This document shows positions 26,615 to 38,185 of a stretch of DNA of 64,000 nt, piece by piece. Under the pieces are notes generated by a model. It searched no databases and was not told where the DNA came from. It was given only the letters and a program-made list of their open reading frames with translations. Position 1 is the first letter of the stretch. Every line of letters begins with the position of its first letter. A program made the translations under genes and the position numbers. Origin of the DNA: Lentzea aerocolonigenes (lineage in GTDB: Bacteria > Actinomycetota > Actinomycetes > Mycobacteriales > Pseudonocardiaceae); contig NZ_BBOJ01000015.1 in NCBI RefSeq assembly GCF_000974445.1, forward strand, positions 186,001 to 250,000, in the 5' to 3' direction.

Positions 26615-28107
26615 AGAGGATGCTGACGGCGGTGCTCGCCGCCGTGATGGCCTGTGCCGTGGTGGTGGCTCCGGCCGCCGCCGGGGGTGATGGCGCGGTG
26701 GTGCGCACCGACAAAGGTGCGGTCAAGGGAACGGTCACCGACACGTACCGCACGTTCGGGAACATCCCGTTCGCCGCGCCGCCGGTGGGCGGGAACCGGT
26801 GGCGCGATCCGCAGCCGGTGACGCCCTGGCGGGACGTGCGGGACGCGACGACACCCGCGCCGATGTGCGCGCAGAACTCGCAGCTCGGCTTGCCCGCATC
26901 CGACGTCGAGGACTGTCTGTACCTCAACGTCACGACTCCGGCGGGCACGTCGGCCAAGCCGCGGCCGGTGATGGTGTGGATCCACGGCGGCGGGTTCACC
27001 GCGGGGGCGGCCTCGCAGTACGACGCGCGGTGGCTCGCGACGAAGAACGACGCGGTGATCGTGACGGTCAACTACCGGCTCGGGGTGTTCGGGTTCTTCG
27101 GTCATCCCGGTCTGGCGGGGTCGGGCACGTTCGGCCTGGCCGACCAGCAGGCGGCGCTGAAGTGGGTGCAGCGCAACGCCCGCGCGTTCGGCGGCGACCC
27201 GCGCAACGTGACGATCTTCGGCGAGTCCGCGGGTGGGCTGAGCGTGTGCGCGCAGCTGGCGTCGCCGCGGGCGGCGGGGTTGTTCGCCAAGGCGATCATC
27301 CAGTCCGGGCCGTGCGGGCTGACCTCACCCTCACTGACCACGCCGGGCGAGTTCACCACGCTGTGGCGACCTCGGGCACAGGTCGAGAAGGCCGGTGCCG
27401 GGGTGCTGGGCTGCGCGGACGTGGCGTGCCTGCGGGCGCAGCCGGTGGAGAAGCTGCTGACGGTGCACGAGCAGTTCTCGTACCCGGCGTTCGACACGGC
27501 GGTGCTGCCGATCGATCCGGTCGTGGCGCAGCGCACCGGCCGGATGAACCGGGTGCCGACGCTGGTCGGGACGACGCACGACGAGATGACGTTGTTCGCG
27601 CCGTTGTTCTGGCCCGAGCCGGTGCCCGAGACCGCCTATCTGGGGCAGCTGACGGCGTTGCTGGGGGCCGGGGTGGCCGAGAAGGTCGCGGCGCGGTACC
27701 CGGTCGACGGTGACGGGGACGCCCGCTCCGAGATCGCGCGGGTGCTGACGGACAAGTCGTGGTCGTGCCCGTCACAGCTCGCCCGCCGGGAGCTGGGACG
27801 GCACGCTCGGGTGTCGGGGTACGAGTTCGCCGACCAGGACGCGCCGCTGATCTTCCCGCTGCCACCGTTCCCGGACTACCAGGCCTATCACGGATCGGAG
27901 CTGGTGATGCTGTTCGAGTTCCCCGGCGTCACGCTCTCGCCGGCGCAGCGGGCGGTGTCGGACTACATGATCGCCGCGTGGGGCCGGTTCGCGCGGACGG
28001 GTGATCCGGGGTGGCGGGCGCCGGTGCAGTCGCTGGCGCCGGGCACGATCGGGGGAACTGATTTCGCCCGAGATCACCGGTGCGGGTTCTGGTCGTCCAT
28101 TCTGTAG
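26611..28107 (+). CDS. Secreted type-B carboxylesterase
   Basis: The 498-aa precursor has a signal peptide (M-K-R-M-L, hydrophobic core, cleavage near A-A-A-G at 22-25). The carboxylesterase fold shows the oxyanion loop I-H-G-G-G-F (about 125-130) and nucleophile Ser in F-G-E-S-A-G-G (about 204-210). A Glu follows in the T-H-D-E-M-T region near 327-332, with a C-terminal His in the Y-H-G-S-E region near 428-432. It would hydrolyse esters outside the cell. The GTG at 26611 has GGGGAG 4 nt upstream. It follows the scar of a tandem paralog. Confidence 0.92.
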   Translation: MKRMLTAVLAAVMACAVVVAPAAAGGDGAVVRTDKGAVKGTVTDTYRTFGNIPFAAPPVGGNRWRDPQPVTPWRDVRDATTPAPMCAQNSQLGLPASDVEDCLYLNVTTPAGTSAKPRPVMVWIHGGGFTAGAASQYDARWLATKNDAVIVTVNYRLGVFGFFGHPGLAGSGTFGLADQQAALKWVQRNARAFGGDPRNVTIFGESAGGLSVCAQLASPRAAGLFAKAIIQSGPCGLTSPSLTTPGEFTTLWRPRAQVEKAGAGVLGCADVACLRAQPVEKLLTVHEQFSYPAFDTAVLPIDPVVAQRTGRMNRVPTLVGTTHDEMTLFAPLFWPEPVPETAYLGQLTALLGAGVAEKVAARYPVDGDGDARSEIARVLTDKSWSCPSQLARRELGRHARVSGYEFADQDAPLIFPLPPFPDYQAYHGSELVMLFEFPGVTLSPAQRAVSDYMIAAWGRFARTGDPGWRAPVQSLAPGTIGGTDFARDHRCGFWSSIL

Positions 28108-28109
28108 GC

Positions 28110-29306
28110 ATGCCCGGCTACCGCGAGCTCGCCCGCGATCGCGAGTTCCGCGCCCTGTTCGTGGCGCACGTGGTGTCGGTGGCCGGGGACCAGTTCGCGA
28201 GGGTCGCGCTGACGGTGCACGTCTACGACCGCACCGCCAGCGCCGGCCTGACCGCGCTGACGTATGCGTTGACGTTCCTGCCGGACCTGGTCGGCGGGCC
28301 GCTGCTCTCGGGCCTGGCCGACCGGTTCGCGCGCAAAGAGGTGATGGTGGCCGCCGATCTCGTGCGGGCGGTCCTGTTGTTGTTCATGGCGGTGCCGGGG
28401 ATGCCGTTGTCGGCGCTCGCGGCACTGCTGGTGCTGGTGCAGTTCGCCGGTGCCCCGCACGGGGCGGCGCGGGCGGCGTTGCTGCCGCAGGTCCTGCCCG
28501 ACGAGCGGTATCCGATGGGGCAGGCCGTGCTGAGCACGGTCACGCAGGCCGCCCAGGTCGCCGGGTTCCTCACCGGCGGCGCCCTGGTGGCGTGGCTCGG
28601 GCCGGGCCCGGTGCTGGTGGCGGACGCGGTGACGTTCGGGGTCTCGGCGTTGCTGGTGCTGGTGTTCCTGCTGGACCGCCCCGCCCCGCGTGGCCCGCGG
28701 GTGCGGGCGTGGCCGGGGGATCTCGTCGGGGGCGCGCGGCTGGTGTGGGGTGACCGCCAGTTGAGGGCGCTGGTCGCGCTGGCGTGCGTGTCGGGTTTCT
28801 ACATCGCGGCGGAGGCGCTCGCGGCACCGCTGGCGGCCCGGCTGGGTGCGGGTCCGGCGGCGGTGGGGGCGATCTTCGGCGTGGTGTCGGCGGGCACGGC
28901 GGTGGGCATGCTGGTGCTGGCGCGGGTGCCACGCGCGCCAGGGCTGCGGTGGATGCCGTGGCTGGCGGTCGTGTCGTGTGCGGTGCTGCTGCCGATGGCG
29001 TTCTCGCCGGGGCTGGCGTGGTCGCTGGTGCTGCTCGGGCTGTCGGGGGCGGCAAGCGGGTACCAGCTGCTCGCGAACGCGTTGTTCGTGCGCTCGGTGC
29101 CCGACGCGACGCGGGGGCAGGCGTTCGGGCTGGCGGTCACGGCGCTGCGGGTCTCGCAGGGGCTGGGCATCGCGGCGGCGGGGGCGGCGGCGCACTGGTG
29201 GCCGGTGCACCACGTCATCGCCGCGATCGCCGGGCTGGGAACGGTGGCCGCGGCGGGGGCGGCGTGGGAGTGGAGAAAGGTCAGCCGGTCGGTGCCGCAG
29301 TTCTAG
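28110..29306 (+). CDS. MFS transporter (DHA-like exporter)
   Basis: The 398-aa protein has about 10-12 membrane helices and the MFS A-motif variant G-L-A-D-R-F-A-R-K-E near residues 67-76. The N-terminus R-E-F-R-A-L-F-V-A-H-V-V-S is typical of the MFS_3/EntS-like group that exports small molecules such as siderophores or drugs. The ATG at 28110 begins 3 nt after the esterase stop codon, so it is probably co-transcribed. The substrate is unknown. Confidence 0.88.
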   Translation: MPGYRELARDREFRALFVAHVVSVAGDQFARVALTVHVYDRTASAGLTALTYALTFLPDLVGGPLLSGLADRFARKEVMVAADLVRAVLLLFMAVPGMPLSALAALLVLVQFAGAPHGAARAALLPQVLPDERYPMGQAVLSTVTQAAQVAGFLTGGALVAWLGPGPVLVADAVTFGVSALLVLVFLLDRPAPRGPRVRAWPGDLVGGARLVWGDRQLRALVALACVSGFYIAAEALAAPLAARLGAGPAAVGAIFGVVSAGTAVGMLVLARVPRAPGLRWMPWLAVVSCAVLLPMAFSPGLAWSLVLLGLSGAASGYQLLANALFVRSVPDATRGQAFGLAVTALRVSQGLGIAAAGAAAHWWPVHHVIAAIAGLGTVAAAGAAWEWRKVSRSVPQF

Positions 29307-29360: not shown

Positions 29361-32300
29361 TCACTCCCCCAGTTCCGACAGCACGGCGCGCGCCCGCCGC
29401 TCGGCCAGCGCCCTGCCGTGACGGGCCGCGACCTGCACGGCCTCGGTCGCCGTCACCGCCGCGGCCGCGGTGTCGCCGAGCGCGATCTGGTCGCGGGCGA
29501 GCTCGGTGAGCACGTCGGCTTCGAGCAGGAGCTGGTGGTTGGCGCGCAACAGTTTCAGCGACTCCTCCGCGCACGCTGCGGCCGTGTGGGCGTCGCCGAG
29601 CTCGCGGTGCGCGGCCGCAAGGCCCAGCAGGGAGGCGCACTCGCCGTAGCCGAACCCGATCTCACGGGCCCGGTGCAGCGTGTCCTGGAACGAACGGAGC
29701 GCTTCGGTGTGCTCGCCCAGGCCGTGGTGCACGCCCGCGAGGACCATGATCACGTTGACCTGGGTGCGGCGTTCGGCGAGCTCGGTGCTCAGCACCAGGG
29801 CCTCCTGCGCGACGCGGCCGGCCAGCTCCAGGCGCCTGGCGTCGAGGTGGACCTCGGCGAGGCAGGCCAGTGACGCGACCTCACCGATGCGCTGCCCTGC
29901 CTGGCGGCAGTAGGCGAGCACGCGCTCGTGGTCGGCGGCCGACTCGTCGAGCAGGCCCAGCGCCCACCTCGCGATGCCGCGGCCGTTGAGGCAGCGGTGG
30001 GTGTGTTCGCGGTGCCCGAGACCGCGGGCCAGCTCCAGCGCCTGGTCGTGCGCGGACAACGACTCGTCCGGGCGGCCGGCGTAGGTGGTGGCGTTGCCGA
30101 TCGAGTTCCACGTCCGCAGCTCGAGCTCGACGTTGCCGGTCGCCTGGGCCAGCTCCAGTGCCGATCCGAGGTACTTCAGCGCCTCCTGGGGACGGCCGAG
30201 CTGGATGATCTGCCTGCCGATGTTGAGCAGCGCTTCCGCTTCGGCGCCGGGATCGCCCAGCTCACGGGCCAGCGCGAGCATCTGTTCGTGGTGCTCGGCG
30301 GCCCGTTCCCACTCGCTGACGTTGTAGAGGATCTGCCCGAGCAGGTCCAGCAGCGACAACCGGGCGGCGTTGTTGCCCGCGGTGATCGCCACGCGCAACG
30401 CCGCCACGAACGTCGCGATGGCCTCCCTGGTGTGACCGCAGGCCCGCAGGTAGCCGTGCAGCACGTCGACCATGCGCCACGCCAGGCGCTGCGCCGGCGG
30501 CCGGGTCGCCGCCCACGTGACGGCGGCCAGCAGGTTGTGCCGTTCCTGTTCCAGCCACCTGACCGCGTCCGGTTCGCTCAACCCTGGGTCGACGGGTTCG
30601 TCGCGCAACGCCGCCACCGGGAACGCCACCCGCGCCGCCGCGGTGGCCCGCCGCAGGTAGTGCTCGACCAGCCGGCACAAGGCGTCATCGGTGTCCGAGC
30701 CGTCCTCACGGGCCAGGCCCGCGGCGTAGGAGCGGATCAGGTCGTGGAACCCGCACCGGCCGGGTGCCGTGCGCTGCAGCAGACCGGCGGCGGCGAGCCG
30801 GTCGAACGCCCGGCGGATCTCGGCGGTGCCGGTGCCGGCGAGCGCGGCCGCCGCGTCCACTCCGATGTCCGGGCCCGGCACGACACCGAGCAGCCGGAAC
30901 AACGTCTGGTCGGCGCGGTGCAGCCGCAGGTAGGACTGGTCGAACGCGGCGCGCACCGCGGACCGTTCGTCGCCGTCGATGGCCAGCGCGGACACCCGGT
31001 CGCGGGTCGTGAGCTCGGTGACGTAGTCGGTGACGCTGCAGCCGGGGTCCGCGGCGAGGTTCGCCCCGGCGATCCGCAGCGCCAGCGGCAGGTGCGCGCA
31101 GGTGTCGGCGAGCCTGCCCAGCGCCTCGGGTTCGGCCTCGGCCCTGCCGGCGCCGACCAGGTCCGCGAGCACCGCCTGGGACTCGCTGTCGCTGAGCACG
31201 TCCAACGCCAGCCCCGTCGCACCGGGGTCCACGACCATGCCGCGCAGGTCGTGACGGCTGGTGATCAGCACGACGCACCCCGGCTGGCCGGGCAGCAACG
31301 GCCGCACCTGGCCCGCGTCGGCGGCGTTGTCGAGCACCAGCAGCATCCGGCTGCCGCTCAGCGCACTGCGCAGCAACGCCGCCTGCTCCTCGACCTCCGC
31401 GGGCATCTGGTCGCGGCCGAACCCCAGCGCACCCAGGAACCTCGTCAGCGCCGCCGACACCGGCAACGGCGGGTCCGCCGCGAAACCCTGCAGGTTCACG
31501 TACAGCTGACCGTCGGGGAACCGGTCACGCCACCGGTGCGCCACGTGCACGGCCAAGCTGGTCTTGCCCACCCCCGGCGGACCGGAGATCACGATCGTGC
31601 GGTCCGCGGCACCAGGCCCGAACGCCAGCTCGTCCAGCCGCGCGATCACGTCCTCGCGCCCGACGAACCGGCTCACCCCACCCGGCACCTGCGCGATGAC
31701 GTGCGCCGGCACCAGGTCACCGCCGTCCCCCGCCGTCAACGCCGTCTGATGTGCCCGTTGCAGCCGCGCACCGGGCTCGACCCCGAGCTCCTCGGTGAAC
31801 CTGCGCCGCACCCTCCGATACGTCCGCAACGCGTCCGCACGCCGACCGGCCAGGTGCAACGCCTCCACCAGCTGCGCCCAGAACGTCTCGTGCCACGGGT
31901 GCTCCTCGGTCACCCGCACCAGCTCACCGATCACCTCACCGTGCCGGCCCAGCTCCAGGCTCACGTCGAAGAACCGCTCCCGCGCCCGCATCAGCTCCTC
32001 GGCCAGCGGCGGCACGTCCTCGCGGTGCAACGACTCCGACGCCACGTCCGGCAGCACCGGCCCGCGCCAGCACCGCAACGCCTCCCCCAGCAACGCCCGC
32101 TCGTCCTCACCCCCGGCGCCCGCGGCCGCCCGCACGGCGTCGCGGAACCTGGTCAGGTCCAGCGCGTCGTGCGGCACCCGCAGCAGGTAGCCGTCCGGGT
32201 GGGTCTCGATGACGGCCCCGTCACCGAGCATCCTGCGCAGCCGCAGCACGTACATCTGCACCGAAGTGCGACCCGCCGGCGGCGCGTCCACGCCCCACAG

Positions 32301-32447
32301 CCGGTCCACGATCACGGACTTGAGCACGACCGTGTTCACCCGCAGCAGCAACGTCGCGAGCAGCGCCCGCTGCTTCGGGCCGTTCACGTGCACGGCACAC
32401 CCGTCCCGGCTGACCTGCAGCGGGCCGAGCACACCGAACGTGAGCAC
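29361..32447 (-). CDS. AfsR-like SARP regulator (BTAD, NB-ARC and TPR domains)
   Basis: The 1028-aa protein has an OmpR-type winged helix at about 1-92 (L-T-F-G-V-L-G-P-L-Q-V) and a BTAD domain at about 97-236. The NTPase has P-loop G-P-P-G-V-G-K-T at 289-296, a Walker B region L-L-V-L-D-N-A-A-D near 372-380, and an NB-ARC/winged region. TPR repeats run from about 640 to the end. This is the AfsR layout, so it is an ATP-binding activator of secondary metabolism. The start is the GTG at 32447, with AGGGGG 6 nt upstream. It lies 121 bp downstream of the repeat-peptide gene. Confidence 0.93.
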   Translation of the reverse strand: MLTFGVLGPLQVSRDGCAVHVNGPKQRALLATLLLRVNTVVLKSVIVDRLWGVDAPPAGRTSVQMYVLRLRRMLGDGAVIETHPDGYLLRVPHDALDLTRFRDAVRAAAGAGGEDERALLGEALRCWRGPVLPDVASESLHREDVPPLAEELMRARERFFDVSLELGRHGEVIGELVRVTEEHPWHETFWAQLVEALHLAGRRADALRTYRRVRRRFTEELGVEPGARLQRAHQTALTAGDGGDLVPAHVIAQVPGGVSRFVGREDVIARLDELAFGPGAADRTIVISGPPGVGKTSLAVHVAHRWRDRFPDGQLYVNLQGFAADPPLPVSAALTRFLGALGFGRDQMPAEVEEQAALLRSALSGSRMLLVLDNAADAGQVRPLLPGQPGCVVLITSRHDLRGMVVDPGATGLALDVLSDSESQAVLADLVGAGRAEAEPEALGRLADTCAHLPLALRIAGANLAADPGCSVTDYVTELTTRDRVSALAIDGDERSAVRAAFDQSYLRLHRADQTLFRLLGVVPGPDIGVDAAAALAGTGTAEIRRAFDRLAAAGLLQRTAPGRCGFHDLIRSYAAGLAREDGSDTDDALCRLVEHYLRRATAAARVAFPVAALRDEPVDPGLSEPDAVRWLEQERHNLLAAVTWAATRPPAQRLAWRMVDVLHGYLRACGHTREAIATFVAALRVAITAGNNAARLSLLDLLGQILYNVSEWERAAEHHEQMLALARELGDPGAEAEALLNIGRQIIQLGRPQEALKYLGSALELAQATGNVELELRTWNSIGNATTYAGRPDESLSAHDQALELARGLGHREHTHRCLNGRGIARWALGLLDESAADHERVLAYCRQAGQRIGEVASLACLAEVHLDARRLELAGRVAQEALVLSTELAERRTQVNVIMVLAGVHHGLGEHTEALRSFQDTLHRAREIGFGYGECASLLGLAAAHRELGDAHTAAACAEESLKLLRANHQLLLEADVLTELARDQIALGDTAAAAVTATEAVQVAARHGRALAERRARAVLSELGE

Positions 32448-32520
32448 CACACACCCCCTGACCACGCGAGGGTGTCGATTCAACCAGTGGAAGTGGACAA
32501 GGACATGTCGTGACGGCGTT

Positions 32521-32545
32521 GGAGGGTGCCGGCGCAGCACCCTCC
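32521..32545 (-). terminator. Hairpin between the repeat-peptide gene and the SARP gene
   Basis: A 9-bp perfect stem (GGAGGGTGC at 32521-32529, GCACCCTCC at 32537-32545) with a 7-nt loop lies 24 bp after the peptide stop and 73 bp before the regulator start. With no T-run after it, it may be a leaky terminator or an mRNA stabiliser that sets peptide above regulator expression. Confidence 0.45.
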
Positions 32546-32568
32546 CCAACCGGCGGCACTCACAAGTG

Positions 32569-32703
32569 TCAGACGGTCCAGTCCGTCGACGCGAACGTCC
32601 AGTCCGTTGAGGACGCGAACGTCCAGTCGGTGGAGGTGAACGTCCAGTCGGTCGACTTCGCGAAGGTCCAGTCCGTCGAGGTGAAGGTCCAGTCGGTGGA
32701 CAG
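32569..32703. repeat. Tandem 21/24-bp repeat array, six copies
   Basis: Six copies of a unit containing GTCCAGTC(C/G)GT(C/T/G)GA on the plus strand. The period alternates between 21 and 24 bp, always a multiple of 3, so it is constrained as coding sequence. Confidence 0.75.
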
Positions 32704-32718
32704 CGCGCGGTTCATCAT
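32569..32718 (-). CDS. 49-aa peptide made of six S-T-D-W-T repeats
   Basis: From the ATG at 32718 the product is M-M-N-R-A-L followed by six units of 7-8 residues: S-T-D-W-T-F, T-S-T-D-W-T-F, A-K-S-T-D-W-T-F, T-S-T-D-W-T-F, A-S-S-T-D-W-T-F and A-S-T-D-W-T-V, then stop. AAGGAG lies 6 nt before the ATG, and nearly all codons end in G or C, which supports the minus strand. It has no signal peptide or Cys. I do not recognise a family. It resembles AfsS only in being a tiny repeat protein next to an AfsR-type gene. A ribosomal peptide precursor is another possibility. Confidence 0.7.
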   Translation of the reverse strand: MMNRALSTDWTFTSTDWTFAKSTDWTFTSTDWTFASSTDWTFASTDWTV

Positions 32719-32829
32719 GACCGTCTCCTTGTGGGATGTGTTGCGGTTGTGCGAAGGGGGTGAAAAAGGTGAGGACTACTCAGAGTGAGGTCCCCCACAT
32801 GGAGCCACGACTTCGCGTGACCCGGTAGC

Positions 32830-32835
32830 TACAGT
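32830..32835 (+). promoter_or_regulatory. -10 element TACAGT for the diguanylate cyclase gene
   Basis: TACAGT lies 36 nt upstream of the chosen GTG at 32872, with a weak GACTTC 16 bp before it as a possible -35. It would give a short leader that includes the GGTGGGGGTGG ribosome binding region. Confidence 0.35.
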
Positions 32836-32871
32836 GGTTTGTTCCTAGTGGATTTCGGTGGGGGTGGCAGC

Positions 32872-34128
32872 GTGCCTTGGCTCGACCCGCGCCGGTGGAA
32901 GTTATGGTCCCTTCCTCCTGTCGTGCTGACCTACGTCGTGACGACTGCCGTGGCGGCGGCACTCGTCACGCTCGCAACCGCACGGCTTACCCCTGTCGAG
33001 GCGCGCCACTGGATCTGGTTCGCGGCACTCTCCGTCGCCGCGCTGACACACCTGGAAGCGGCGCGCGGCATCGAACGCATCCGCGAAATCTCCTCTGAGG
33101 GCGTTCCTCACGCGCAGATGCAGTCGGTCTGGCAGTTCGCGGGCGTGCTCGTTCTCCCGATGCCACTGGTCGTCCTGCTGGTCGTGACCATTTACCTGCA
33201 CGCGTGGCTGCGGGTGTACAAACGCCGGGCGGTTCTCTACCGGAAACTGTTCTCCGCCGCCACTGTCGTACTTGGATGCGCCGCAGCGCAATGGGTGCTG
33301 GCCATGTTCTCCGCGACAAACCCGTCCGACCTGGACGGTCCACGCGGGCTGGTCGCACTCGTCGTGGCCGGGTTCCTCTACTGGTTCGTCAACTACGCCC
33401 TCGTCGTCGGCGCCATCATCATGACCAACCCCGCGAACCCGATGCGCACCGCGCTCGGCCACGCCTCCGACGTCCTCATCGTCACCGCGTCCGTCGGCCT
33501 CGGCTCCGGCATCGCGATCATCGCCACCGCCCGGCCGTGGCTCTCACCGATCCTGCTGCTCACCGTCCTGGCCCTGCACATGGGCCTGCTGCTGCCGCAG
33601 TTCCGCATCGCCGCCCGCACCGACTCCAAGACCGGCCTGGTCGACGCCACCTTCTGGCACGACGTCGCCGAACGCGAGATCGCCCGCGCCCGCCGCCTCG
33701 TCTCCACCGTCGGCGTCCTGATCCTCGACCTCGACCACTTCAAACAGATCAACGACACCTACGGCCACCTCGCCGGCGACCGCGTCCTGCGCGCCGTCGC
33801 CGACGCCCTCAAACACGCCGTGCGCTCCTACGACCTCGTCGGCCGCTTCGGCGGCGAGGAGTTCGCCGTCCTGCTGCCCGGCGTCGGCACCAACGAGGTC
33901 CGCGCCACTGCCGAACGCATCCGCTTCGACATCGCCCGCCTCGAGGTCGAAGTCGTCGACCGCGTCGGCGAGACCCGCGTCATCACCGGCCTCACCGGAT
34001 CCGTCGGCGCCGCCGTCTTCCCCGACTCCGCGACCGAGCTCAGCCCCCTGCTGCTCGCCGCCGACGACGCCCTCTACCAGGCCAAGAGCAACGGCCGCGA
34101 CCGCGTCGCCACCGCCCAGGTCCACTGA
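32872..34128 (+). CDS. Membrane diguanylate cyclase (GGDEF domain)
   Basis: The protein of about 418 aa has five to six N-terminal membrane helices (to about residue 240) and a C-terminal GGDEF domain (about 250-410). The active site G-G-E-E-F is intact (about 327-331), and the substrate loop contains L-D-L-D-H-F-K-Q-I-N-D. The R-S-Y-D motif five residues before it is a canonical inhibitory I-site. It should make cyclic-di-GMP under product inhibition. The start is the GTG at 32872 with a GGTGGGGGTGG region upstream; a TTG at 32839 and a GTG at 32848 are alternatives. Confidence 0.9.
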   Translation: MPWLDPRRWKLWSLPPVVLTYVVTTAVAAALVTLATARLTPVEARHWIWFAALSVAALTHLEAARGIERIREISSEGVPHAQMQSVWQFAGVLVLPMPLVVLLVVTIYLHAWLRVYKRRAVLYRKLFSAATVVLGCAAAQWVLAMFSATNPSDLDGPRGLVALVVAGFLYWFVNYALVVGAIIMTNPANPMRTALGHASDVLIVTASVGLGSGIAIIATARPWLSPILLLTVLALHMGLLLPQFRIAARTDSKTGLVDATFWHDVAEREIARARRLVSTVGVLILDLDHFKQINDTYGHLAGDRVLRAVADALKHAVRSYDLVGRFGGEEFAVLLPGVGTNEVRATAERIRFDIARLEVEVVDRVGETRVITGLTGSVGAAVFPDSATELSPLLLAADDALYQAKSNGRDRVATAQVH

Positions 34129-36112: not shown

Positions 36113-38122
36113 TCAGGAGCGCGCACCATCCTCTGCTCCGACCACCCGAGACGACAATGCGCCATTCGGCGGCATGCGCTCCGCGCTCACCACGTCACGC
36201 AACGGCACCGGCCGACCCAGGTGAAAACCCTGCCCGACCCGCACCCCCAGCCCCCGCAACACCTCCACCTGCGACGGCCGCTCCACCCACTCCGCCACCG
36301 CCGACAAACCCAGCCCGTTCGCGATCTGCACGATCCCCGAGACCAGCACCGCGTCCGCGTCGTTGGTCTCGATGCCCTTCACGAACTCACCGTCGATCTT
36401 GATCCCCGTGATCGGCAGATGCTTCAGGTGCACGAAAGACCCGAACCCCGAACCGAAGTCGTCCAACGTGATCCGGCACCCGAAACTCCGCAGCTGCGTC
36501 GCCAGCGTCACCGCCGCGTCCAGGTTCGTCACCGCCGCCGTCTCCGTGATCTCCAAACCCAACCGGCCCGGCGCCACCCCCGCCGACCCGAGCTTGTCCA
36601 GCACGAAGTTCCCGAAGTCCGGATCCTCCAACGTCCGCCCCGACACGTTCACGTTGAACCGCAACCGCGAGTCCGGCTCCGCCACCAACGCGTCGATCGC
36701 CGTCGACAACACCCACCGGTCGACCTCCAGGATCAGGTTCGACCGCTCCGCCACCGGCAGGAAGTCGGCAGGCCCCAGATACGGCTCCTGCCCGTCCTCC
36801 AACCGCAACAACAACTCGTGCCCCAGCGTCTGCCCCGACGACAGCTCCACCATCGGCATCCCGTACAACGCCAGCCCGCCACCCGCCAGCGCAGACCGCA
36901 ACCGGTCCAGCACACTGACCCGCTTCACCGTGTCCGCGTAGTGGTTCGGCTCGTACACCGTCACCCGGTCCCGGCCCGCCGCCTTCGACGCGTACAACGC
37001 CAGATCCGCGTTCGCCAGCACCAGCTCCCACGAATCCCCCGGACCGAACTCCGCCAATCCAGTCGACACCGTGATCCGCGCCGGCGTACCGATCCCCGCC
37101 AGCGGAAAACCCGCCACGGCTTCCTTCAGGTTGTCCGCCACCTCGGACGCGTCCTTCAACGACGCACCCGGCAACACCACCGCGAACTCGTCACCGCCCA
37201 GACGCGCGATCAACCGATCACCCAGACGCGACTGCAACGCCGACGCCAGCATCCGCATCACCCGGTCACCCACCGCGTGACCCCGCAGATCGTTGACGTC
37301 CTTGAAGTTGTCCAGATCCAGCACCAGCAACGCACCCGAACCGTTGTTCGCGAGCTCCTGCTCCAACGCCCGCGTCAACGCACGCCGGTTCGGCAACCCA
37401 GTCAACGGGTCCTGCTCGGCCATCCGCACCAGCTCGTCGTGCACCCGCGACGACTGCGTCACGTCGTGCGCCGTCCCCAACGCACGCAACGGCGTCCCGT
37501 CGTCATCCACGACGACCTCACCGAAACACTCGAACACCCGCTCCGCACCGTCCGGACGCAACATCCGGTGCGTGTACGAGAACACCGATCCCGACTTCAA
37601 CGCCGCGTCCAGCGTCTCCTCGATCATCGGCAGGTCGTCCGGGTGCACCAGCCGCGAGTACAGCTCGAAGTCGAACGCCGTCCCCGGCTCGAACCCGAAC
37701 ATCTCCAGCAACGTGTCCGACCACGTCACCCGGTCCTCGGAGATCGACCACTCCCACGTCCCCATGCGCCCCAGCGCCTGAGCCCGCCGCAGCGCGTCCG
37801 CCTCCTGGGTCACCGTCAGCTCGCGATCACGCCACGCCGACACGTCCACGACCTCGTACATCAGGTCGTCACCCAGACGTGAACACCGCACCTCGAGCCA
37901 CTTCGGCCCCGGCGCCAGCACCTCCCGCGTCGGAGCGGGTCCCTCGGGCACACCGGGCAGCAGCGCGGGCAACGACCGCCCGTACGCCTGCTCGACCGGA
38001 ACCCCCAGCACAGCACCCAAAGCGCGGTTGCACCACAACAGGTTCCCGCGTGCGTCCGTCACGGCATAGCCGACATCCGCTCGGTCCAGCACCGTGCGGC
38101 AGTAGGAGGTCACGCGCGTCAT
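36113..38122 (-). CDS. PAS-PAS-GGDEF-EAL cyclic-di-GMP protein
   Basis: The protein of about 669 aa has a first PAS domain (about 5-95), a second PAS/PAC domain (about 120-225) and a GGDEF domain with intact G-G-D-E-F (309-313). The EAL domain has the first-motif Glu retained as H-E-L-L-L-R, then F-N-V-N-V-S-G, E-I-T-E-T, L-D-D-F-G-S-G-F and I-K-I-D, so key metal and catalytic residues are present. Both synthesis and hydrolysis of cyclic-di-GMP are plausible, set by PAS ligands. It is soluble. A GTG at 38179, 6 nt after the upstream stop codon, is an alternative coupled start. Confidence 0.9.
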   Translation of the reverse strand: MTRVTSYCRTVLDRADVGYAVTDARGNLLWCNRALGAVLGVPVEQAYGRSLPALLPGVPEGPAPTREVLAPGPKWLEVRCSRLGDDLMYEVVDVSAWRDRELTVTQEADALRRAQALGRMGTWEWSISEDRVTWSDTLLEMFGFEPGTAFDFELYSRLVHPDDLPMIEETLDAALKSGSVFSYTHRMLRPDGAERVFECFGEVVVDDDGTPLRALGTAHDVTQSSRVHDELVRMAEQDPLTGLPNRRALTRALEQELANNGSGALLVLDLDNFKDVNDLRGHAVGDRVMRMLASALQSRLGDRLIARLGGDEFAVVLPGASLKDASEVADNLKEAVAGFPLAGIGTPARITVSTGLAEFGPGDSWELVLANADLALYASKAAGRDRVTVYEPNHYADTVKRVSVLDRLRSALAGGGLALYGMPMVELSSGQTLGHELLLRLEDGQEPYLGPADFLPVAERSNLILEVDRWVLSTAIDALVAEPDSRLRFNVNVSGRTLEDPDFGNFVLDKLGSAGVAPGRLGLEITETAAVTNLDAAVTLATQLRSFGCRITLDDFGSGFGSFVHLKHLPITGIKIDGEFVKGIETNDADAVLVSGIVQIANGLGLSAVAEWVERPSQVEVLRGLGVRVGQGFHLGRPVPLRDVVSAERMPPNGALSSRVVGAEDGARS

Positions 38123-38185
38123 GATCGTCCGATCACCGGACGTAAGCAACCCGCTACGCCGGTCAGTTCGCAACTTCACGAACGG

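Follow-up and report, generated by a model that had tools for sequence, protein, structure and literature searches.

A tandem-repeat gene for short tryptophan peptides next to a membrane diguanylate cyclase gene in Lentzea and its relatives: a possible peptide input to c-di-GMP signaling

Microcin C7 is encoded by mccA, a single gene of seven codons whose peptide starts with fMet-Arg, and the system includes an MFS exporter and the ThiF-like MccB. The RRNPP and Agr systems use longer precursors, and the receptors of their peptides are histidine kinases or cytoplasmic TPR proteins. AfsS (AfsR2) of Streptomyces coelicolor is a tiny protein made mostly of short tandem repeats, given in the available part of its description as 63 aa with three 12-aa repeats (PMC2267785). 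The biarylitide gene bytA, in the excerpted text of its source, encodes 5 aa from 18 bp and is found in six copies in one strain (PMC13417212). Here we describe a repeat peptide gene of Lentzea that resembles each of these systems in part, and whose conserved neighbor is the gene for a membrane diguanylate cyclase (DGC).

The gene lies in a 64,000-nt stretch of Lentzea aerocolonigenes DNA, analyzed as a whole and called the window below. On the minus strand, from 32718 to 32569, it translates to MMNRALSTDWTFTSTDWTFAKSTDWTFTSTDWTFASSTDWTFASTDWTV followed by a stop: 49 aa with six STDWT units. The first five (32683..32700, 32662..32679, 32638..32655, 32617..32634, and 32593..32610) read STDWTF; in the sixth (32575..32589) V follows STDWT, not F. 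The units are linked by one or two residues. As DNA, the array spans 32576-32701 with periods of 21, 24, and 45, each a multiple of 3 (Tandem Repeats Finder), and a direct-repeat search finds a 46-nt repeat in three copies with 45-nt spacing. The Shine-Dalgarno sequence AAGGAG (32725..32730, minus strand) stands 6 nt ahead of the ATG, and the reading across it, HKETV, is the same in all eight genomes that have the STDWTF gene. A preliminary description, made from the letters of the window, had pointed to the six D-W-T units, to a good AAGGAG site, and to a repeat period in multiples of 3 bp; apart from the V that ends the sixth unit, all of this is borne out. It had also assigned the peptide to no named family, and the peptide indeed matches no Pfam or NCBIfam profile. 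An 85-aa relative matches no NCBIfam family, plasmid and phage sequence searches using the window peptide gave no match, and a scan of 32300-33000 for promoters and terminators saw none.

The STDWTF ORF is full length, in frame, and free of stops in 8 of the 24 genomes of the genus. Length differences between its units among genomes are whole codons, and the Thr and Ser codons vary at third positions with the residues constant. Pooled over 28 pairs of ORFs, pN/pS is 0.18; dN/dS of the relatives against the window copy is 0.05-0.24. Because the frame is kept to this extent and pN/pS is this low, the ORF is a protein-coding gene under protein-level selection. A chance ORF was considered and rejected on the same grounds, the differences being mostly synonymous.

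The relatives at the locus are Lentzea, which belongs to the Pseudonocardiaceae, and a strain recorded as Nocardia sp. NRRL S-836 (G007), which a genome search places in the same genus. The preliminary description had named frameshifts or stops in relatives as the test of the peptide; it withstands that test, with a frame-broken extra copy in G007 as the sole exception. Besides this copy, G007 carries a GNEWTF locus and a STDWTF locus that is intact. The broken set, of TDWT-like repeats, is on contig 154 (L019), in a stretch that contains neither a DGC nor an MFS match. Weak search rows were dropped as non-members or broken (L009, and on G007 C154 L011, L012, L023, and L024), and another on G007 C92 (L010, L022) proved to be the GNEWTF locus. 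At the looser E of 0.01, used for the genus only, the two extra rows were the broken C154 copy, not beside a listed DGC.

In the window, 118 bp downstream of the peptide gene and on the same strand, is the gene for an AfsR-like SARP regulator (BTAD + NB-ARC + TPR; 29361..32450, minus strand). It separates the peptide from the gene for an MFS transporter (28080..29306, plus strand; PF07690), which usually bounds the peptide on the side away from the DGC gene described below. The preliminary description had set the peptide upstream of this SARP and proposed looking for the repeats next to BTAD/NB-ARC regulators in relatives. The arrangement is real in the window and recurs in G020 (taken as Lentzea albidocapillata; L002/L013) and G018 (taken as L. 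aerocolonigenes; L008/L018), which makes three STDWTF genomes. As a conserved link it does not stand, since in the other five (G001, G002, G005, G007, and G009) the peptide is followed directly by the MFS gene. Another 15 Lentzea genomes combine a shorter [TN][DE]W peptide with DGC and MFS, and the locus contains no SARP; G022, also Lentzea, has no DGC match at E<=1e-30 and no STDWTF match. SARP-type matches at E<=1e-150 occur in all 24 Lentzea genomes; a close ortholog (at least 71% identity) is in three, always at the peptide locus, and the others have 39-45% identity.

The eight STDWTF genomes group together (100/99) in a phylogeny built from the DGC membrane domain; within this clade the SARP bearers branch first, the inner order being weakly supported (93/94, 86/83). 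Because the three bearers branch first, the SARP may be ancestral there, present early in the clade and then lost; or it may have been gained more than once. This branching, together with the same-strand position just downstream in the window, is what can be said for the peptide as a ligand of the SARP's TPR domain or as an effector under SARP control. We give that reading very little credence in view of the five STDWTF genomes without a SARP and of its presence at 3 of the 120 DGC loci described below, and its family-wide form is refuted; readings centered on the SARP were rejected as a role for the family as a whole. The SARP of the window is a lineage-specific neighbor, at most a local regulator or target, outside the conserved module.

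A distant analogue of AfsS had also been proposed. The two are alike in being tiny and mostly short tandem repeats, with an AfsR-like gene nearby in the window. They differ in layout, AfsS having its three 12-aa repeats in 63 aa (PMC2267785, available part) and the window peptide its Trp units of 5-8 aa in 49 aa, and here the partner is the DGC, not an AfsR-type regulator. The analogy thus fails on both repeat layout and regulator. What survives of the earlier ideas on the peptide is that it is a real repeat peptide of several copies of one unit; the tie to the SARP does not.

The DGC gene (32839..34128, plus strand; PF00990, E 4.6e-40), which the preliminary description did not mention, is divergent from the peptide; its TTG start is a mechanical call and putative. 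The protein has a helical (membrane) domain of about 250 aa and then a GGDEF domain, which reads GGEEF at the GGDEF motif with RSYD in front, presumably an RxxD I-site. In the common gene order, MFS and peptide genes converge, and the DGC gene diverges from the peptide. When 390 genomes of the family were searched with a peptide profile (E<=0.001), 37 genomes gave 39 rows at 38 distinct places: eight Lentzea STDWTF loci, 29 in genus g44 (Amycolatopsis-like in our judgment), and the second place in G007. By coordinate comparison, all 38 adjoin DGC membrane-domain matches from an independent search. Most g44 peptides take the form MSHFLPNANIVPSRRRAQRPTDWTRQLPTDWT..., their units number 5-10, and no SARP adjoins them. 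Searched across the class, the DGC was found in 20 of 296 genomes, all from families f1 and f32. The latter, also in this class, is probably Micromonosporaceae. Within Lentzea the peptide type largely tracks the DGC tree. Matches in Nonomuraea and Streptomyces have no such peptide by the rule given below. Two DGC-type matches of this family lie close together in L120/L122 (G615:C29) and again in L160 (G497:C3). A PAS-GGDEF-EAL protein is encoded 2 kb from the DGC in the window (36113-38179, minus strand), and a GAF-GGDEF-EAL protein near the module in L157 (f32).

How often a peptide accompanies the DGC was counted at 80 loci hand-picked by DGC matches, those already found via the peptide being left out. 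They comprise 15 Lentzea loci without STDWTF, other Pseudonocardiaceae, f32, and the second DGC of the window genome. The rule, written after inspection of the loci, calls for a start with a 4-nt ribosome-site match and then one of two designs: two or more polar-polar-Trp units within one short ORF, or an ORF of 5-9 aa that has a polar start and W/F at position 6 or 7. By this post-inspection rule, the divergent strand encodes a polar-polar-Trp peptide at 69 of the 80 loci. Extended to 120 distinct DGC loci, it scores 108 as positive, 84 by repeat ORFs and 24 by minigenes, and the other 12 as none; the genomes are related and partly hand-picked and the peptide itself led to the first loci, so that the counts are not independent. 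On the opposite strand of the same gaps the rule finds a peptide at none of the 120 loci; a looser earlier rule (one motif, ORF up to 160 aa) gave some calls there. By our own genus labels, 16 of 17 genera have at least one positive locus, and g3, with four loci, has none.

Among the 11 misses of the 80, three (L098, L110, and L112) have one degenerate unit each and one (L101) has two units lacking a passing start; L113, L115, L120, L137, L139, L140, and L144 have no convincing copy. The twelfth locus scored as none is the second DGC stretch in L160. In L101 (G275) GRPSEWR repeats are readable, and the gene may be broken, because its N-terminal part is in a different frame than in L104/L107. 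In L113 (G104) the usual strand yielded no copy, and MRQNNWT, which resembles the minigenes, occurs in an ORF on the same strand as the DGC, among the calls of the looser rule.

The unit comes in two gene designs. In Pseudonocardiaceae it is mostly repeated inside one ORF (STDWTF, PTDWT, GNEWT, RPNDW, GRPSEWR, GSEWHR, DSNWH), and in f32 and several Pseudonocardiaceae separate genes of 6-8 codons occupy the same place, such as MRDNTWT, MRDTTWS, MRDNNWT, MRDNKWSR, and MRNRHW, each closed by a stop. L157 has 13 of these minigenes in tandem; a few loci have one. Some loci are hybrids, with two units per minigene (such as MRENTWRENTWK); L147 has three of these in tandem (such as MRNNTWRRNNTWS), and L122 has four MMRDTNWVLRDTNWSW and one partly masked. 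Such loci join the two designs. In L155, the second DGC/MFS pair of the window genome (G000:C37:178400-181903), a single minigene reads MRNRDF and a stop, Phe for Trp, behind a strong GGAGGTG site. The ORF at 4553-5692 of L077 opens with AQLRP repeats and then has unreadable (X) residues.

A Shine-Dalgarno match of at least 5 nt precedes 96 of the 101 units in 24 minigene loci, and 49 of the 442 remaining ATGs in these gaps have one, a figure partly built in, as the units were picked by W/F at position 6 and polar residues at 2-3 and the loci had already passed the rule. A freer check used 6-8-codon ORFs with Trp at position 6 and no ribosome-site filter. It gave 116 ORFs on the divergent strand, at 37 of the 120 loci; 93 have a Shine-Dalgarno match of at least 5 nt, 96 have R at position 2 and 89 have D at position 3, and the prevailing residues are D/A at position 3 and T/N at position 5. 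On the opposite strand these 120 gaps hold three such ORFs, none with a Shine-Dalgarno match. A strict minigene pattern run over 324 genomes of the class matched in 13, all f32, and its reversed form in none of the 324. Among the 57 rows of the strict pattern, 52 lie in the DGC gap, two are one contig-edge site (G598 C29), and the remaining three are two sites away from DGC (G545 C4:932330 and G536 C91:128084). On plasmid p1 of Pseudonocardia sp. DSM 110487, three minigenes reading MRNHNW and a stop are divergent from a gene for a GGDEF protein; no gene is listed at that stretch in a gene table known to be incomplete. A gene for a prolyl oligopeptidase-family peptidase takes the usual MFS place on this plasmid (L177 810-2723).

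The repeats sit in a divergent gap, where they could be DNA or RNA elements, either operators of divergent promoters or part of an antisense transcript into the convergent MFS gene, with the ORF incidental. The frame-broken repeats of G007 contig 154 agree with this, and SARP-LAL regulators are reported, in the accessible part of one source, to bind heptameric direct repeats (PMC5930380). Such elements would hardly explain the pN/pS value, the spacing of units in whole codons, the D/E and T/S/N exchanges between lineages, the Shine-Dalgarno sequences ahead of nearly all minigenes, or the use of both Ser codon blocks, AGC and TCN, at minigene positions 4 and 7. We disfavor this reading and consider it very improbable.

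Beside the DGC, the MFS gene is the other frequent companion of the peptide. Among the 108 positive loci it is directly beyond the peptide in 93, beyond a SARP in three, not found in nine, and off the contig or stretch in three. At the loci picked by DGC (80 minus four at contig ends), a peptide is present in 58 of 60 with MFS vs. 9 of 16 without (Fisher p 1.5e-4, uncorrected for kinship). Clustering of neighbors over 21 loci of 6-18 kb, some one-sided, leaves DGC (18/21) and MFS (16/21) as the only widely shared genes; three further clusters (11, 10, and 6 loci) are by coordinates antisense readings of DGC and MFS genes, SARP-like genes occur in three loci, and every other cluster is common to two.

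With the seven-codon mccA the minigenes, of 6-8 codons, share a very short length, an fMet-Arg start, and an MFS partner, peptide export being putative here; they differ in that mccA is a single gene accompanied by MccB, whereas here up to 13 genes stand in tandem with no conserved ThiF neighbor. A ThiF-domain gene lies within about 4 kb of the locus in five of six f32 genomes checked. The microcin C idea was rejected: ThiF is near the locus in 5 of 15 genomes checked, all f32, and none was found within 50 kb of listed DGC loci in nine Pseudonocardiaceae genomes checked. In f32 the ThiF-domain gene (ThiF + nitroreductase in L156) and a small gene adjoin the module (L156 1571-4437, L158 6363-9223), a set that we take to resemble the pair Rv1354c-Rv1355c.

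The same genes bear on whether the units are core peptides of a multi-copy RiPP that the MFS protein exports, with the DGC as a regulatory neighbor. Very short, multi-copy precursor genes of this kind are known, bytA being an example: in the excerpted source there are five-codon genes, some with MR starts, with aromatic residues and in multiple copies (PMC13417212). The adjoining MFS gene, and in f32 the nearby ThiF-domain gene, which in L156 is ThiF plus nitroreductase, would fit. The bytA peptide differs, however, in having its aromatics at 3 and 5, where we find STDWT units or minigenes with Trp at 6, and it goes with a cross-linking P450 (PMC13417212, same excerpt); among the neighbors scanned here there is none, and a DGC instead. 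In nine window proteins scanned besides the peptide, at 25.6-38.2 kb, Pfam profiles reveal no P450, radical-SAM, YcaO, or ATP-grasp domain, the 21 loci (some just 6 kb long) have no third widely shared neighbor, and the nine Pseudonocardiaceae genomes lack a ThiF match near the DGC. A RiPP seems unlikely to us, though not far-fetched.

Nor must the peptide leave the cell. It may be a small adaptor that titrates or bridges a target, such as the DGC, the MFS protein, or RNA polymerase, by means of its Trp motifs. Head-to-tail motifs on one chain could give avidity, inspection of the window peptide by eye finds no secretion signal, and nine peptide loci have no MFS gene. The minigene arrays speak against it, since they would yield separate peptides of 6-8 aa and hence no single-chain avidity. 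We rate an intracellular adaptor as doubtful, while keeping it in view.

We regard the ORF of the window as the Lentzea form of a gene that yields many copies of a short polar-polar-Trp unit. The DGC and the MFS protein are tied to the peptide by gene position, and from this synteny and the coding evidence we infer a mechanism. The ORF product would be cut into, or would display, short Trp units. As the unit is amplified either within a chain or as separate minigenes, what matters would seem to be how many peptides are made, not the chain. The units could then serve as a signal or ligand, amplified in dose, and set how active the DGC is by way of its membrane domain; binding or activation of the adjacent DGC is putative, with synteny pointing to it. 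The adjoining MFS gene suggests transport, and the MFS protein might move the peptide across the membrane. A membrane DGC with GGEEF as neighbor suggests that the peptide feeds c-di-GMP signaling, so that c-di-GMP would be the read-out. That the peptide/DGC/MFS module makes dose-amplified short Trp peptides, probably a signal read out as c-di-GMP, is the reading we favor, with confidence that falls somewhat short of even. The likeness to RRNPP and Agr is that a short peptide gene stands beside a candidate receptor gene; those systems differ in their longer precursors, against leaderless minigenes beside a DGC here.

The predicted structure of the DGC is of moderate confidence (mean pLDDT 83, pTM 0.61; 81 and 0.78 for the membrane domain alone). 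A fold search with the whole protein has GGDEF proteins among the matches listed, and one with the membrane domain gave nothing at E<=0.001. Among the weaker matches, the most promising are S-components of ECF transporters (3rlb_A and 5kc0; probability 0.93 and 0.91, E 0.56 and 1.3), a likeness of the model that we take only as a hint. ECF S-components bind small ligands.

In open-access literature, searches with the peptide strings gave nothing relevant, and no description of the module was among the matches listed. The tiny Trp-containing peptides, usually in several copies beside a DGC gene, are apparently an undescribed family. Gene callers readily overlook genes of 6-8 codons, as the copies on plasmid p1 exemplify. 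We tentatively propose, with rather less assurance than for the module itself, a new class of bacterial peptide signaling, in which a dedicated MFS protein would transport leaderless short Trp peptides, made from tandem minigenes or a repeat polypeptide, and a dedicated DGC would sense them with its membrane domain and give c-di-GMP as the read-out. This would hold for Pseudonocardiaceae and for at least one further family of actinomycetes. c-di-GMP times development and antibiotic production in actinomycetes. If the proposal is true, the up to 13 peptide copies beside a DGC gene would be a peptide input to c-di-GMP in these bacteria.
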